Shown here one piece after another: positions 244 through 11,082 of a stretch of 64,000 nucleotides of DNA; the first letter of the stretch is position 1; each line of letters opens with the position of its first letter. Position numbers and translations under genes: made by a program. The stretch is from Desulfuribacillus stibiiarsenatis (GTDB taxonomy: Bacteria > Bacillota > Bacilli > Desulfuribacillales > Desulfuribacillaceae). Under the pieces are notes generated by a model. The model did not search any database. It worked only from the letters and a program-made list of their open reading frames with translations, and was not told the origin of the DNA. Location: positions 1 through 64,000 of the forward strand of contig NZ_MJAT01000006.1 of the NCBI RefSeq assembly GCF_001742305.1, read 5' to 3'.

Positions 244-276
244 TTTATAATCCGGACTGCAGGACTGGTGGAAACT

Positions 277-1531
277 ATGCAAACCTCACTGCGGGGAATA
301 ACAACAAAAGCAAAACAAGATAAGAACTATCGCTTCGGTAACCTTTATGGGTTAATAGACAAAAACGCTTTGTATGAGGCATGGGGTAGCATCAATAAAA
401 AAAGCATCAGCAGGAGTAGACAAGGTAAACGCAAAACAATTCAAACAAAACCTTGACCCAAACCTCAGCGAACTCCTAGACCAACTAAAACAAAAGAAAT
501 ACAAAGCCAAACTCATAAAAAGAGTCAACATACCAAAAGAAAATGGAAAAACCAGACCCCTAGGAATACCCACAGTCAAAGATAAAATCCTACAAAAAGC
601 AGCAGCCCAAATACTAGAAGCAATCTATGACCAAGAATTTCTAACAAGCAGCTACGGGTATAGACCAGGAGTCGGACCACAAAAAGCAGTAAAAAAACTC
701 ACCAAAGAAATCCAAGGCAAATACAGCTACATAGTCGAAGCAGACATCAAAGGGTACTTCAACAACATAGACCATGAATGGCTAATGAAAATGCTACAAC
801 TGCGGATAAAAGACAAAGCATTCCTAGGACTCATAAGAAAATGGCTAAAAGCAGGCATCCTAGACACAACAGGAAAAACAATACACCCAACAACAGGCTG
901 TCCACAGGGCTCAACCATAAGTCCAATACTAGCAAACATCTACCTTCACTATGCACTAGATTTATGGTTTGAAAAAATAGTAAAACCAAGAAGCATAAGC
1001 GACGCATACCTATGTCGTTTTGCAGATGATTTCATTTGCGCGTTCAGATATAAACAAGACGCAGAGAGGTTTTACAAAGCACTTGGCAAAAGACTGGGAA
1101 AATTCAAGCTGGAATTAGCAGAAGAGAAGACAAAAGTAATAAGTTTCTCAAGATTTAGAAAGCACGAAAACACCAGCTTTGAATTTCTAGGATTTGGATA
1201 CCGATGGAAAGTCTCACAAAAAGGGAATGACATAATAACGAGACAGACCAGCCGAAAGAAACTAACCAAATCAATACAGAACTTTACCGAATGGTGCAAA
1301 GAGAAACGTAATAAAAGACTAAAGAAAATCGTAGATATGTTTAATGCCAAACTTAGAGGATACTTTAACTATTACGGAGTCATAGGAAATTATAGCAGAA
1401 TACAACAATTCTATAACATAGCCATCAAAATACTGTATAAATGGCTAAACCGCAGAAGCCAAAAGAAAAGCTTCAACTGGACCGAGTTCAACGCAAAAAT
1501 GAAATGGTATGGTTTAATGAGACAAAAATAA
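277..1531 (+). pseudogene. ltrA: Group II intron reverse transcriptase/maturase, frameshifted
   Basis: This intron-encoded protein would reverse-transcribe and help splice its intron. The N-terminal 42 residues (METSL-type opening, MQTSLRGITTKAKQDKNYRF) are read from ATG 277, and the rest from a frame one base ahead. The switch lies at a run of seven A (397-403); with six A the protein would read continuously as NKKASAGVDKV. Downstream are the RT blocks GKTRPLGIP, SSYGYRPG, EADIKGYFNNIDH, GCPQGSTISP and the catalytic FADD, then the maturase X domain (KLRGYFNYYGV). No HNH endonuclease follows. Either the gene is dead, or transcript slippage on the A run restores some full-length protein. Confidence 0.85.
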
Positions 1532-1896: not shown

Positions 1897-2349
1897 ATGA
1901 TAAAAGTAAGTAAGTTTAGGCATGTTGCAATCGTTGTTAAGGATTATAAAAAAATGATAGATTTTTATTCGAAAATCTTAGGATTTGAAATTATTAGAGA
2001 AATTGAGGTTAGTAATGAGGAATTTAGAAAGGGTATCGGACTTCCAAACGCAGTTGCTAAAGGTGCACATTTGGCTATACCCGGAAACAATGTAGAAATT
2101 GAGATGTTTCAATTTGAAAAAAAGATGGATAGGTGTGATGAATTATCTATTGCAAACTATCCTGGATTTAGACATATTGCTTTAATAGTAGAAAATCTTG
2201 GGGAAGCATATGCGAGTCTTAAGTCAAAAGGGATAGAATTTGTATCTGAACCGATTTGCATGAAGGAACCACCAAGTGTAGCTGGGTTTAGATTTGTTTA
2301 TTTTAAAGATCCTGAAGGCAATATAATTGAATTAAATCAACTGCCGTAA
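1897..2349 (+). CDS. VOC-family (glyoxalase/bleomycin-resistance fold) protein
   Basis: A 150-residue vicinal-oxygen-chelate protein of unknown substrate. The opening FRHVAIVVKDYKKMIDFYS, the central PGFRHIALIVENL and the ending FKDPEGNIIELNQL form the two beta-alpha-beta-beta-beta units of the fold, with metal-ligand-type His and Glu in place (His near residue 8, His near residue 91, Glu near residue 147). The ATG at 1897 is preferred because AAGAAAGGA ends about 12 bases before it; in-frame ATGs at 1885 and 1837 are too close to or upstream of that site. The gene is intact, unlike its neighbours. Small VOC proteins are frequent integron-cassette cargo, which fits the site that follows. Confidence 0.85.
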   Translation: MIKVSKFRHVAIVVKDYKKMIDFYSKILGFEIIREIEVSNEEFRKGIGLPNAVAKGAHLAIPGNNVEIEMFQFEKKMDRCDELSIANYPGFRHIALIVENLGEAYASLKSKGIEFVSEPICMKEPPSVAGFRFVYFKDPEGNIIELNQLP

Positions 2350-2437
2350 GATGTGGTATTATTTCCTTTAGTTGACATTATGATAGTTGTTAGTCCGCAG
2401 CGTCCTTCTGCTCTTGCTATGTGGGGCAGAGTCCGCC

Positions 2438-2576
2438 GCCTAACAAGGCTCTCCACTAGGGGCAAACAAGAAGCATATTCGGTTGGAGTTATAGCATGAA
2501 GTAATCATGCCACATCCACTAGCTAAGATATGAGTTATATAAATCTAGCGGATGTTGCAGACGTCAGACGTTATTT
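2438..2576 (+). repeat. attC-like site 1, after the VOC gene
   Basis: A 139-bp imperfect palindrome in the gap between the VOC and DUF1697 genes. It starts with GCCTAAC, a perfect RYYYAAC box, and ends with GTTATTT. Inside are a 6-bp hairpin (GCATGA/TCATGC, 2494-2510) and a longer one with arms ACATCCACTAG and CTAGCGGATGT (one mismatch) around a loop containing GCTAAGATATGAGTTATA. The 3' end reads TGCAG, nine bases, then GTTAT. The loop is shared with the site at 3362. The rest of the 350-base gap (2350-2437, 2577-2700) holds nothing else I can identify except the ribosome site of the next gene. Confidence 0.5.
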
Positions 2577-2700
2577 GAAATTTCAGGTCTATGAAAGGTT
2601 ACATTTCCGCATCTAAAGATTTCTTAGATTATTATGGCACAAAGATAAGTCACAATTATAATACATTACGATTTATTTAATATTAAGGAGAATTAACAAT

Positions 2701-3257
2701 ATGAATGTTTATATAGCATTATTAACAGGTATCAACGTAGGTGGAAAAAATATAATTAAAATGGCAGATTTGAAACGAGTAATGGAATAATTGGACTTTT
2801 TGAAGTAAAAACATATATTCAAAGTGGAAATGTTCTATTCAAATCAAATGAAGTAGAGGAATCTCTGTGCAATAAAATTGAACATGAGATTGAAACAGTG
2901 TTTGGAATTCCTGTAAAGGTTGTTTTGAGGACGTCTACAGAGTTAGAAGAGATTATTTTGAATTGCCCATTCTCGGAGGATGAAGTGACACAAGCAGAGA
3001 CATTATCCGAAGTAGAGAGTCTGTATGTTGCATTATTGGCACAACATCCTTTAAAAGAAAAGATTGAGTGCATAGATGTTTACAGAAGTGAAAGTGATAA
3101 ATATCAAATTGTAGGGAGAGAGGTATATCTTTTATTCCATCATAGTATTTGGAATTCAAAACTTGCTAATAATCTTTATAAATTGAATGTACCAACAACT
3201 GTGCGTAACTGGAAAACATTAAGCAAACTTGTCCAATTAGCAAAAACTATGATATGA
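2701..3257 (+). pseudogene. DUF1697 family protein, frameshifted
   Basis: DUF1697 proteins are small cytoplasmic proteins of unknown function. The start is clear: AAGGAG, eight bases, then ATG 2701, giving MNVYIALLTGINVGGKN, the family's hallmark opening. The frame hits TAA at 2788 after 29 codons. The family sequence resumes one frame back from about 2787 (GLFEVKTYIQSGNVLF) and runs to the stop at 3255-3257 with the conserved TTVRNWKTL near the C-terminus. A single lost base at about 2786-2790 explains the break. The total length (about 185 residues) is normal for the family, so only the one indel separates this from an intact gene. Confidence 0.85.
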
Positions 3258-3361
3258 AATGTAGAGTGAGAATGTCCTGATTCGGATTTTTTTTATTGTA
3301 AACTACAAGAAAAAATTTGTGGGGTTATCTTACGCATTTAGAGTAAATGACCTGAACCATC

Positions 3362-3476
3362 AACTAACAAAACATTCCAGTTCGCTTTGTCCTGAAAAGA
3401 CGGACAAAGCCACCGCCTCAGGCTAAGATACGAGTTATCTAAGCCTGAGGCGGTGCAGGAATGCGCCACGTTATCC
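3362..3476 (+). repeat. attC-like site 2, after the DUF1697 gene
   Basis: A 115-bp strongly structured element. Outer boxes are AACTAAC (3362-3368) and GTTATCC (3470-3476), with CATTCC/GGAATG pairing just inside after spacers of 4 and 6 bases, as R and L boxes would. Inside are two hairpins: GCTTTGTCC/GGACAAAGC (9 bp, 3383-3409) and CACCGCCTCAGGCT/AGCCTGAGGCGGTG (14 bp perfect, 3410-3455). The loop of the second matches that of site 1 in 19 of 21 bases, while the stem arms differ in sequence but stay paired. The remaining gap (3258-3361, 3477-3557) has an AT-rich stretch and no gene. Confidence 0.55.
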
Positions 3477-3557
3477 ATAATATTGATGCTTAGACTATTA
3501 CCAAAAATTACGTTTCGGGTATAATGATTATAAGTATTCAATATGGAGGCGATCGAG

Positions 3558-3731
3558 ATGAGTGCAAAAGAAGAAGTTATAAAAATCATCAAAGAATTGC
3601 CTGAAACTGCTACGATAGAAGATATTATGTATAAAGTATACGCTCGTGTACAAATAAAAGCTGGATTGAAAGAACTCGATGAAGGCAAGGGGATTACTCA
3701 TAAAGAAGCTATGGAAAGAGTATCTAAATGA
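3558..3731 (+). CDS. Small antitoxin-like protein of a toxin-antitoxin pair
   Basis: A 57-residue protein (MSAKEEVIKIIKELPETATIE then a helical, charged body ending HKEAMERVSK). Such short proteins beside RelE/ParE toxins form the DNA-binding or neutralising partner. ATG 3558 is chosen because GGAGG (3545-3549) lies eight bases before it; the upstream ATG 3543 overlaps that site. Its stop overlaps the toxin start in the sequence ATGA, the usual translational coupling of such pairs. The toxin is broken, so this gene may now be a solitary antitoxin. Assignment to the antitoxin role is by context and size; the family is not certain. Confidence 0.7.
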   Translation: MSAKEEVIKIIKELPETATIEDIMYKVYARVQIKAGLKELDEGKGITHKEAMERVSK

Positions 3732-4021
3732 TTAAATTAATTTGGTCGCAAAAATCATTGAATGATTTAGAAGAAATTTATAAATATATATCGGCTAATT
3801 TCTGAATCAAATGCTAAACAGTATATCGAAAGAATAATTAAAAAAACAGAAGATATTTCAAATTTTCCCTTTATCGGTAGGGTTGTACCTGAGGCTAGTG
3901 ACAACAAAATCAGGGAAATCATATCTATCAATCATAGAATTATATATAGGATAAATCTGATTCAGTAGAAATTGCTACAATATTTCATGTTGCCAGACAA
4001 TTAAAAGAAGACAACATCTAG
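3728..4021 (+). pseudogene. RelE/ParE-type toxin, two compensating frameshifts
   Basis: The product would be a RelE/ParE-superfamily toxin. ATG 3728 opens MIKLIWSQKSLNDLEEIYKYI, typical of the family. An extra T in TTT at 3799-3801 then throws the frame into a stop. The family sequence continues in the next frame (SNAKQYIERII, FPFIGRVVPE, REIISINHRIIYRI) until about 3956, where one missing T shifts it back to the original frame for VEIATIFHVARQL and the TAG at 4019-4021. The conserved elements are therefore all present but split by one insertion and one deletion, so no complete toxin is made. Loss of an active toxin is a common fate. Confidence 0.8.
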
Positions 4022-4062
4022 ACATTTAGCATGATGTTTTTGTTAGCGATTCAGCATACTAC

Positions 4063-4128
4063 GGATAACAACGCATCACGTGTCTTGAAAGTACATACAG
4101 TGAATTCTGCAGCGTCGTCATGTTAACC
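4063..4128 (+). repeat. attC-like site 3, after the toxin-antitoxin unit
   Basis: A 66-bp element bounded by GGATAAC (4063-4069) and GTTAACC (4122-4128). Its 5' box is the exact complement of GTTATCC at 3470-3476, the boundary that opens this cargo unit. CATCACG (4074-4080) can pair with CGTCATG (4116-4122) with one mismatch. TGCAG, nine bases, then GTTA repeats the 3' layout of site 1. It lacks the shared loop of sites 1 and 2. No further cargo lies between it and comEC. Confidence 0.45.
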
Positions 4129-4251
4129 CGTAAGGGACAAGGGAGATATAGAAGAGGTCATGCGTTTGTAATTGATATTTCTGGTATAGCAAACAGGATT
4201 TAAAACGCGCAACGTCGAAAATCTCTCTATGTGAAATATGGGAGGGATTGG

Positions 4252-6711
4252 ATGCGTCGCCCTTTATTTTGGTCATTATTGATTTTTATCACGGGATTAT
4301 TCTTATCTGTAGCAATCCTAGATGCATATGCGTTTTCTAACACTAGTCTCATCATTAAAAAAATAACCCAATTGGTATTTATATTGCTCATCGTGATACT
4401 ATCATCGATTGTAGCCGTTAATCATTTCAAGCTATCAAAGCAAACCTTCATCTCAATACTACTATCTGTATTTATATTCCTGTTAGGAAGTTTCTATGGT
4501 CTAGTAACGGTGAAACAAACTTCCTCGATAGGATCAGTGTTGAAAGATCGTCAGGATATCACGATGGAAGGCATTGTGGATACCACATGGCATACACCAA
4601 CACAACAGAATATCATCATAGAAACATTAGAAAAACATCGTATACGTGTCATACTCTATAAGAATGATGAAGCAACAGAGTCTATGTCGGGCGATCCCAA
4701 GCCATCTACTAGCGTATCTATCTACCCTGGTGATTACGTACAAGTTTCTGGAGAATTCCGTAAGGTAGAACCGAAGCGCAATCCTGGAGGCTTCGATGAA
4801 CGAAGATATTACTGGCTCCACGATTGGGATGGAAAAGTCGTTAGTGATAGCAGTAATGTGAAAATCATTCAAAGAATAGATGTAAGCTCAAGCCCAACAT
4901 CGAGCCTATCGACATACTTGTTTTCCTATCTTCCTTTTAAAATGCGAGAGTTCTATCAAGGTGCGCTTCGTTCACACCTTGGCGAGAAAGAATTTATGAT
5001 CGTTAACGCCTTAATTCTAGGTGAACGAACATCGATGGATTTTGACACGAAGGAATTAATTCGCAAACTAGGATTAGCCCATTTATTTGCCATATCTGGC
5101 TTGCACGTAGGGATTATTGTGTTGGCTTTTATTGCTGTTATGGACAGACTACGAATGGTAAGAGAGCGAAGTTATTTAATATTAATTATTTTACTTCCTA
5201 TATATGCACTCTTAACAGGTGGAACATCGTCTGTAGTACGTGCTGTAATAATGATTGAAGTTGCATTGCTCGGATCTCTACTATCAAGGAAGAGCGATGT
5301 ATATACAAATATCGTGATCGCAGCATTCCTATTATCTTTTTATAACCCCAAAGTACTTTTGCAAGTAGGTTTTCAACTGACGTTTATTATTACATTGGGA
5401 ATCTTGTTATTTGAGCCCATTATTGATTATCTCCTGCTAAAATGGAATTTCACTTGGAAATGGTTGCGTAAACTATTGTCTGTTACAATAAGCGCCCAAG
5501 TTTTCTCTTTCCCTTTGCTGGTATACTATTTTCAAGAATTCTCTTGGACGGTACTTCTTTCGCAATATTTCATTCTACCAATAACAAGCGTTGTAATTTT
5601 ACCAATAGGTTTTCTATTTCTTTTAATTTCGTGGATTCATCCGATGATACCGGCACTTTTAGCAATTATTTTACAGTGGGCTTCATCGGCTATGCTTTGG
5701 ATTACTGAATTTATGTCGTTTGCAACAAAATACGTCAGCTATTTTCCTGAGCGTCACTGGTTATGGCTCGTAGGCTACTTGCTACTTGCCTTGTTCCTTG
5801 CATATCTTATGTATCAACGTAGGTATCTTAATAAACTCATCATTAGTTTGGTTTGCGCCTTACTACTCTTTGCAGGTTCTCTTTGGATTCCTAAGCTACC
5901 GACAGGAAGTTTACAAATGACTTTAATTGACGTGGGTCAAGGCGATGCAATTCATATTGAAACACCGAAAGGGAGACATATTTTAATTGATGGTGGAGGT
6001 GTACCAAGCTATAACAATAATGTCTACGATGTCGGCGAACGTATCCTTTTGCCATATTTTCGAGCAAATGGTATACGAAAGCTTGATATGGTTTTTCTGA
6101 GTCATGCAGATTGGGATCATATTCAAGGATTGTATCAAATACTTAAAGAGATACCTGTACAAAGCTTTGTATATAGCTTTGAGGATCCACGGGAAAGCTT
6201 TCTTCAGCTAAAATCAATTGCAGAACAAAAAAATATTCAAATATTTCAAGTAAGTCAAGGAAACCAAATTGTCATTGAGGATCAAATAGTGCTTGATATC
6301 TTATATCCTGATATAATAGTAGGGAGTCAAACAGATCCTAATCATTTATCTATGGTGATGCGATTGATGTATAACGAAATGGATATTCTACTCACAGGGG
6401 ACATTGATGAACTCGCTGAGGATAAGATTAGGCCATTCCTACAGAATAGCGAAATTGAACTTCTAAAGGCAGCCCATCATGGAAGTCAAACATCCAGTTC
6501 TAAAGCTTTTCTTGATACAATACAGCCAAAGGTATCGGCCATAAGTGTTGGTGCTAATAACCGGTTTGGTCATCCCAACCAATCCGTTATCGACCGTCTT
6601 GAAGAAGTAGGAAGTGCAATCTATCGAACTGATTTACACGGAGCCATCACGTTTAAATTGAATAAACAAAGGATGGCCGTAGAAACTATGATTCAATTAC
6701 AGGAACATTAA
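4252..6711 (+). CDS. comEC: ComEC/Rec2-type DNA uptake channel protein
   Basis: An 819-residue integral membrane protein that passes single-stranded DNA across the cytoplasmic membrane during transformation. It has N-terminal membrane segments (first ~85 residues), a periplasmic OB-fold region, a competence domain with many helices (about 230-530, including HLFAISGLHVG) and a C-terminal metallo-beta-lactamase domain (DVGQGDAIHIE near 560, SHADWDH near 617, AAHHGS near 740). ATG 4252 is preferred over GTG 4231 because GGGAGGG lies five bases before it. In Bacillus it follows comEA and comEB; here the accessory array sits directly upstream, so its promoter may have been altered. Confidence 0.95.
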   Translation: MRRPLFWSLLIFITGLFLSVAILDAYAFSNTSLIIKKITQLVFILLIVILSSIVAVNHFKLSKQTFISILLSVFIFLLGSFYGLVTVKQTSSIGSVLKDRQDITMEGIVDTTWHTPTQQNIIIETLEKHRIRVILYKNDEATESMSGDPKPSTSVSIYPGDYVQVSGEFRKVEPKRNPGGFDERRYYWLHDWDGKVVSDSSNVKIIQRIDVSSSPTSSLSTYLFSYLPFKMREFYQGALRSHLGEKEFMIVNALILGERTSMDFDTKELIRKLGLAHLFAISGLHVGIIVLAFIAVMDRLRMVRERSYLILIILLPIYALLTGGTSSVVRAVIMIEVALLGSLLSRKSDVYTNIVIAAFLLSFYNPKVLLQVGFQLTFIITLGILLFEPIIDYLLLKWNFTWKWLRKLLSVTISAQVFSFPLLVYYFQEFSWTVLLSQYFILPITSVVILPIGFLFLLISWIHPMIPALLAIILQWASSAMLWITEFMSFATKYVSYFPERHWLWLVGYLLLALFLAYLMYQRRYLNKLIISLVCALLLFAGSLWIPKLPTGSLQMTLIDVGQGDAIHIETPKGRHILIDGGGVPSYNNNVYDVGERILLPYFRANGIRKLDMVFLSHADWDHIQGLYQILKEIPVQSFVYSFEDPRESFLQLKSIAEQKNIQIFQVSQGNQIVIEDQIVLDILYPDIIVGSQTDPNHLSMVMRLMYNEMDILLTGDIDELAEDKIRPFLQNSEIELLKAAHHGSQTSSSKAFLDTIQPKVSAISVGANNRFGHPNQSVIDRLEEVGSAIYRTDLHGAITFKLNKQRMAVETMIQLQEH

Positions 6712-9900: not shown

Positions 9901-11082
9901 ATGCCTATTAAACGTAGAAACTTTAGAAGTATGACGGTTAACCTTAGTGGATTTGACATTAAGAAACAAATCATAACGATAGCAATTTCTATTGTCTTCA
10001 TACTCGTACTTGTAGGTATTACATTTACAAGTGTAGAGAGCTTGACCAGTGAAGCGAATGAGCAATCAAGAGTTGAGCAATTAGTAAGCAAGATAAGAAC
10101 AGCAACGTATAAGCAAATTCTCCAACACGAGATGAAAGTTCTTAACGCAACTGAAACTTCCACACATTCTAATCGGACAACCTATGAATTCGGAGCTTTC
10201 TTATCTAAGTTGTTCACAGGCATAGAGATTTATAATTTACAAAGCATATTGCATCAGGAGGTACCAGGGTACAGCGTAATGGCAATGGAGCTAATTGGTG
10301 ATCGCAATCAACTTGATATTTATGCTCCACCGGTAGAAACACCACCGCCAGACAATTTATTTTCGAACGAAAAAGAAGATAATGAAGATCAAAAACCTGA
10401 ACCACCGAAAAAACCAAAGCAAGAACCGACTAAGCCTAAAGTTAACTACACAGAGAAACCACCAGTGCTAATCTATCACACGCATAACCGTGAAGCTTTC
10501 TTACCGGAGCTAAAAAATATTAAAAAGGCAAACGAAGCATATCATCCGACCAATAATATTACCTTAGTAGGTAAACACCTTGCAGAAAACCTTGAGAAGC
10601 TAGGTGTTCCAACAATTCTATCATCAAAAGATTACTGGGTAGATTTGCCACCAGGGGAATATTGGAAGTCATATGTGCATTCGAAGAAAGAAGTAGAGGC
10701 AATTTTAAAACAGCATAAGTATATTCCATTTATCCTTGATATTCATCGTGACTCTGCTTTAAGAGCGAGGACAACTGTTACACATAGTGGTAAAGACTAT
10801 GCAGCTGTGTGGTTTATTATTGGGCAGATTAACCCTACGTGGCAATATAACTACCAATTTGCGGCGACTATAGAGGGACGCTTAGAGGCTAAAGTACCTG
10901 GAATATCAAGAGGTATATGGGCAAAAAAGAGCGGTCAATATAATCAGGACATTTCCCATAATAGTGTTCTAATCGAGATTGGTGGAGTAGATAATAATTT
11001 CGAAGAGGCTAACAGAACAGCAGAGGTTTTAGCAAAAATAATTGCTGATCTGTATGAAGATATGGTCATTCAAGGACAATAG
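9901..11082 (+). CDS. spoIIP: Stage II sporulation protein P
   Basis: A membrane-anchored cell-wall hydrolase which, with SpoIID and SpoIIM, degrades septal peptidoglycan during engulfment. A single membrane helix lies at about residues 22-42. A Pro/Lys-rich linker (near 150-180) leads into the catalytic domain with VLIYHTHNREAF (near 190), FILDIHRDS (near 280) and SVLIEIGGVDNN (near 358). The 393-residue length is normal. AAGGAGAGG lies before ATG 9901. It follows gpr directly, as in B. subtilis. Confidence 0.95.
   Translation: MPIKRRNFRSMTVNLSGFDIKKQIITIAISIVFILVLVGITFTSVESLTSEANEQSRVEQLVSKIRTATYKQILQHEMKVLNATETSTHSNRTTYEFGAFLSKLFTGIEIYNLQSILHQEVPGYSVMAMELIGDRNQLDIYAPPVETPPPDNLFSNEKEDNEDQKPEPPKKPKQEPTKPKVNYTEKPPVLIYHTHNREAFLPELKNIKKANEAYHPTNNITLVGKHLAENLEKLGVPTILSSKDYWVDLPPGEYWKSYVHSKKEVEAILKQHKYIPFILDIHRDSALRARTTVTHSGKDYAAVWFIIGQINPTWQYNYQFAATIEGRLEAKVPGISRGIWAKKSGQYNQDISHNSVLIEIGGVDNNFEEANRTAEVLAKIIADLYEDMVIQGQ

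Follow-up and report, generated by a model that had tools for sequence, protein, structure and literature searches.

Integrons have been regarded as nearly absent from Bacillota, and a single complete case, that of Limnochorda pilosa, has been described (PMC9024848). The defining character of integron integrases is stated to be an IntI-specific domain around patch III (PMC9668308). This domain, I2, is held to be both essential and unique to them, its deletion abolishing IntI1, and missing intermediates have been named as an obstacle to understanding how integron integrases originated (PMC7790495). IntegronFinder is described as needing both PF00589 and a profile of the IntI-specific domain. 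The stretch of DNA analyzed here, the first 64,000 nucleotides of a Desulfuribacillus stibiiarsenatis contig (C6; hereafter the window), looks on its own like a CALIN, with decayed cassettes and no neighboring integrase; it differs from one in that the parent system has an integrase that IntegronFinder, by its described two-profile rule, should miss. Very probably, the window holds the distal end of a decayed cassette array of a lineage whose integrase is of the Xer/IntI type, lacks I2, and carries an N-terminal HARP-like domain. Rather than being merely canonical attC sites without their IntI, the window sites belong to this I2-less integrase lineage. No prior description of such a lineage was found in a literature search whose scope left out preprints and most subscription journals.

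Cassettes, sites and introns of the window

All features of the window array lie on the plus strand. The window opens inside an IS21-type element, itself within a group II intron: the C-terminal end of an IstB-like ORF occupies positions 1–193 (an IstA-like ORF is found at the end of L026, on contig C36), and the 3′ part of a class C-like intron occupies 251–1674, with its reverse transcriptase at 374–1531 (RVT_1, E 1.1e-39; GIIM). Working left to right, cassette 1 (1675–2440) encodes a VOC/glyoxalase-fold protein (ORF 1897–2349; PF00903, E 1.3e-18). Cassette 2 (2570–3364) encodes a DUF1697 protein (ORF 2701–3257), frameshifted near 2787 with both halves matching PF08002, and cassette 3 (3470–4066) encodes an antitoxin (3543–3731) and a RelE-type toxin pseudogene (3728 to ~4020) frameshifted near 3800. 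These assignments bear out the preliminary description, which had listed VOC, DUF1697, and antitoxin plus RelE-type units, all on the plus strand. The window cassettes were judged to be decaying because the DUF1697 and toxin genes are frameshifted. Cassette 3 has a second copy in the array on contig C38 (L025:11121-11776, 86% identity over 660 bp).

Three structured palindromes with TAAC/GTTA boxes had been claimed, with bottom-strand folding as a proposed check; two of the three folded beyond shuffles. Site A (2437–2577) folds as bottom-strand DNA with z −4.1 (0/200 dinucleotide shuffles as good) and retains its TAAC/GTTA boxes and a strong distal hairpin; its L box is broken, the left and right arms now being mismatched. 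It resembles L026:8651-8820 and L003:690-763. Site B (3363–3477; z −8.9, 0/200 dinucleotide shuffles as good) has the R″/R′ and L″/L′ boxes and imperfect hairpin of a canonical attC, with R boxes TAAC/GTTA, L box CATTCC/GGAATG, and a distal hairpin of 14 bp. Site C (4063–4128, 66 bp) lacks this architecture and showed no fold (z +0.6, 143/200 shuffles as good), and the absent fold and the intron identity of its right part rule it out as an attC. Its left part (4063–4079) is the left half (R″-L″) of an attC, GGATAACAACGCATCAC, whose right half is lost; fused to it is what remains of the 5′ part of another group II intron (4080–4140). This remnant has an internal deletion and matches L032:10514-10555 and 10689-10736. 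Window positions 4093–4140 are 96% identical to the latter segment, which lies inside an intron sitting in an attC of a related genome. The loop TAAGATAYGAGTTATMTAA, common to A and B, was found again in the same register on C1, C36, and C38 of the same genome, so that the further copies for which a genome search had been proposed do exist. An Rfam search over the window returned nothing at gathering scores, and a permissive search gave only chance miRNA matches at hairpin A. Throughout, attC-type sites were called with a home-made finder calibrated on flanks, which degenerate sites escape; because it passed neither A nor B, the window calls rest on folding and on the copies elsewhere. A and B, though degenerate, appear to be genuine attC-type cassette sites.

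The array begins outside the window, most likely on C36. The 5′ part of the intron lies at the end of C36 directly after an attC R′ box (GTTA|GTGCGCC, L026:9790), and the site of the window intron is this box (GTTA) of the last C36 attC. C36 and C6 most likely form a single locus because both ends match, back to back, one intron of a Peptococcaceae MAG (L087) that has no interruption: L026:9784-10287 corresponds to L087:13705-14208 and window positions 251–1389 to L087:14205-15342, with a 4-bp overlap, indicating intron continuity across the IS copy. The contig break between C36 and C6 is caused by the IS. When joined, the order is most likely a NUDIX gene, a 131-bp fragment of comEC, five sites of the attC type, the intron plus IS, the window cassettes, and an intact comEC. 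The comEC start in the window (4192–4322) has a diverged 131-bp copy at the other end (L026:6202-6332, 88% identity), and the array thus lies between the comEC fragment and the intact comEC, as if it had entered by flank duplication. In G001, a sister-genus genome, comEC has no adjoining array.

The window intron resembles group IIC-attC introns in occupying the R′ box of an attC; the differences are that its host attC is of the I2-less lineage and that a second group II intron is found inside an attC stem. An intact second intron, in L032 (G001), is flanked by GCATCAC and AAGGGTGCGG of an attC. In two unrelated Bacillota genomes (L026:9790 and L087:13716), class C-like group II introns occupy the identical attC R′ position (GTTA|GTGCGCC).

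An integrase lineage without I2

The genome of D. stibiiarsenatis has attC-type sites on C1, C36, C38, and C6. The C38 array comprises eight cassettes (L025:6340-13990) and is preceded by a 5′-truncated tyrosine recombinase gene, whose remaining C-terminal half keeps the catalytic R, K, H, R, and Y. The preliminary description of an integrase-less attC cluster was thus correct within the window but not for the genome. An intact integrase was found in the same-family genome G001 (373 aa from TTG, although the start is likely GTG, giving 361 aa), and an array of the C38 kind comes after it. With more arrays in the genome, an integrase relic, and intact relatives, the earlier view that the palindromes are cassette recombination sites appears to hold. 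Canonical IntI (TIGR02249) was absent over the cut-off in the own genome and 60 relatives, including the array bearers G001, G019, G027, and G031, which rules it out as the driver of the window array across these 61 genomes.

Matches to the integrase at E ≤ 1e-55 occurred in 22/399 genomes of the class, with arrays downstream in nearly all fetched loci. A GTDB genome scan gave 216 integrase matches, of which 80 loci were kept; these are mostly from Clostridia and Paenibacillus, with single loci from Deltaproteobacteria, Latescibacterota, Dehalococcoidia, Ignavibacteriota, and Flavobacterium. The integrase-attI-array unit was seen in Paenibacillus, Vulcanibacillus, many Clostridia, a few Bacteroidota (plasmids included), Ignavibacteriota, and Latescibacterota. 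In a phylum sample of 398 genomes, the new type was full-length in 17 and canonical IntI was over the cut-off in two; overall, about 4–5% of sampled Bacillota genomes have I2-less integrases with cassette arrays. Draft contigs often stop a few hundred bases past the integrase stop codon (L081-L160, e.g., L081, L084, L091, L126, and L128), and therefore attI/attC repeats probably break assemblies, leaving arrays under-represented in drafts.

Plasmids of Chryseobacterium and Rufibacter carry the new integrase, with small plus-strand genes and palindromes resembling attC after it (L166:7923-13800, L168:9638-14100, and L170:9923-11596). These arrays were read by eye, the home-made finder having picked few of their sites, and they appear to be plasmid-borne integrons of the I2-less lineage. 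Plasmid and phage homologues of the integrase share at most 43% identity, and most have no N-terminal domain; no array accompanies integrase-like genes without this domain in G085 and G178. Close relatives without the N-terminal domain occur in L167, L170:13054-13833, L185, and L186. Those in L170, L185, and L186 adjoin IS91-family (HUH, single-strand) transposase genes, and that in L167 lies near other IS genes; it is possible that these relatives are an ancestor pool acting on single-stranded DNA.

The new integrases resemble IntI in being tyrosine recombinases with a C-terminal YTHV...SPLD motif and with attI and attC cassette arrays alongside, and catalytic R-K-H-R-(H/W)-Y are invariant columns of their alignment. 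IntI4 (2a3v) is the nearest solved structure both by sequence (phmmer 2.3e-37) and by Foldseek E-value. However, the roughly 40-residue I2/patch III insertion of IntI is missing: the interval from the catalytic-lysine block to HxLRH is 62–65 residues in 66/66 new integrases but 103–105 in five IntI, and the absence of I2 is evident in two-block alignments to TIGR02249 and IntI4. Three intact integrases scored 202–239 bits against TIGR02249, whose cut-off is 265 bits. They further differ from IntI in having an extra N-terminal HARP-like domain and in gene direction: the integrase gene points at the array, and attI lies 3′ of it. The core is equal in length to that of XerA, XerC, and XerD, which likewise are without I2 (mostly 61–69 residues over the same interval in Xer-like recombinases), and by fold, they are about as near to the new integrase as IntI4 is (VIA-align Z 21–22 for XerA types and 18 for IntI4). 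Xer, though, acts at a single dif site, whereas an integrase-linked attI, many attC sites, and cassette turnover are found here. IntI formed a separate clade (support 100/100) with no new integrase inside. Free trees disagreed on how IntI and the new clade group, with neither grouping rejected (AU p 0.74 and 0.82). By the published definition, the new integrase is not an IntI, and IntegronFinder should not call it because the described rule needs the I2 profile.

The N-terminal domain of ~70 residues is absent from IntI and was predicted with pLDDT 90. Its profile has its best PDB sequence match, a weak one, in 4o66, the HARP of SMARCAL1 (E 0.0056), and Pfam HARP (PF07443) gave weak matches in 20/61 members (best E 4e-4; the bits shown are 16.7 and 17.6 against a cut-off of 25). 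In fold, it resembles the N-terminal domains of UvsW (Z 7.6, 2.3 Å, 62 residues) and XPB (Z about 6). All of these matches are weak, and SMARCAL1, UvsW, and XPB are helicases, whereas here the domain is fused to a tyrosine recombinase. HARP and UvsW/XPB-type N-terminal domains are found in enzymes acting on branched DNA or on single/double-strand junctions. We hypothesize, with about as much expectation for as against, that the HARP-like domain replaces I2.

Array structure and cassette turnover

Across the 80 loci, 201 plus-strand and 16 minus-strand sites were called in 381 kb downstream of the integrase, compared with 41 and 36 in 730 kb upstream; the enrichment is about tenfold and confined to the downstream side and the strand of the integrase gene. 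At least two sites were present in 37 of the 43 loci having at least 2.5 kb downstream. Cassettes usually consist of one gene and one attC-type site, all in one orientation, and 114/143 have their longest ORF in the plus orientation. Recurring cargo includes GNAT acetyltransferases, NUDIX, methyltransferases, VOC proteins, and a few defense-related families, the same families that recur in known integrons. The product of one C38 cassette (L025:7995-8375) is of the retropepsin-like aspartic protease type (LIDTGSSNTIID motif). A mini-cassette without an obvious ORF (GATAGGCAGGACAT...CGTTA) is repeated in three arrays (L025:13290-13410, L026:8840-9012, and L003:2310-2492) and its attC-like site, long and GC-rich, differs from the rest.

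The R″ box of an integron cassette pairs with the 5′ end of that cassette and not with its linear neighbor. In the new arrays, R″ and the own cassette 5′ end matched fully over the first four variable positions in 122/213 pairs, versus 14/213 for the same linear site; the mean own-cassette complementarity was 3.12 matches versus 1.93 ± 0.05 after shuffling. The rule holds approximately for the three cassettes of the window. With the intron bridged, the 5′ end of cassette 1 reads GTTA|GGCGAC, in agreement with its own R″ box (GTTAGGCGAC/GCCGCCTAAC); cassette 2 has 5′ end GTTATTTGAA and own R″ ATCAACTAAC, and for cassette 3 the pair is GTTATCC/GGATAAC. The same rule makes the first cassette, and hence the attI junction, locatable, and a putative junction was placed in 54/66 loci. 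The predicted attI lies about 70–140 nt downstream of the integrase gene and carries a TTTACGAAGTWCGTAAAT-type motif twice, as in Paenibacillus, where the junction is 126–128 nt past the stop codon in one large group.

Three sister Paenibacillus loci (L146, L150, and L152) are 93–94% identical over ~8–10 kb through the integrase up to the GTTA of attI. Between attI and the last attC their cassettes are unrelated, with no whole cassette in common by the search used, and identity returns, at 94–98%, starting at the TAAC of the last attC. This pattern and the own-cassette complementarity support the cassette as the probable unit of movement, its turnover taking place between attI and the last attC.

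Recognition of attC and competing explanations

The integrase would recombine attI with a folded attC, the joint falling at G|TT in the R′ box; cassettes would thereby be inserted next to attI and excised as circles. In the own genome, decay is seen in the lost 5′ half of the integrase gene (C38), in frameshifted cassette genes, and in attC sites invaded by introns and the IS; the arrays of this genome are stranded. Sites chosen without an L-box criterion still have pairing L boxes, most clearly outside Paenibacillus, where the mean pairing score was 21.4 for true partners, 13.6 when partners were swapped inside an array, and 8.3 at random; in L136, the L box differs at almost every site and yet still pairs. 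The L boxes pair while their sequence varies, and recognition of a folded single strand of attC is therefore favored, as in integrons. It is possible, though we think it unlikely, that recombination is instead double-stranded and Xer-like, the hairpins being by-products or terminators. The integrase of course lacks I2, the domain conferring folded-single-strand recombination in IntI (PMC7790495), and Paenibacillus L boxes are almost invariant in sequence, both of which suit such a reaction. Against it are the pairing values outside Paenibacillus, the differing but still pairing L boxes of L136, and the uniform polarity of cassettes, as in bottom-strand recombination.

An ordinary CALIN, i.e., a canonical IntI integron with a lost intI and an unremarkable integrase, is most improbable: neither the C38 relic beside its array nor any intact integrase of the 66 relatives has I2, and the phylum sample contained canonical IntI far more rarely than the new type (2 and 17 of 398 genomes). 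This is despite the resemblance to canonical attC of the RYYYAAC-like/GTTRRRY-like boxes, L boxes, and gene orientation, and despite a few CALINs being known from Firmicutes (PMC9024848). Chance, or ordinary intergenic repeats (REP, MITE, or terminators) between unrelated genes, is scarcely credible. Short palindromes are common, and site C proved to be no attC, but coincidence does not predict ~tenfold enrichment confined to the downstream side and strand of the integrase, complementarity within the own cassette, or turnover that stays between attI and the last attC.

The reading we prefer, a decayed array of the I2-less lineage, has a broader form on which we are evenly divided: a second integron route may exist, in which a Xer-type recombinase would act on folded attC without I2, using HARP-like recognition; it could be independent of IntI or an I2-less precursor stage, and would be the prevailing type in Bacillota. 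Judged from sequence comparisons, the window appears to be a fossil of an overlooked integron lineage that is widespread in Bacillota. Standard integron software, going by its described rule, should overlook the I2-less type, and the lineage points to a large unannotated pool of mobile cassettes. Natural I2-less integrases make the origin of integron integrases testable.
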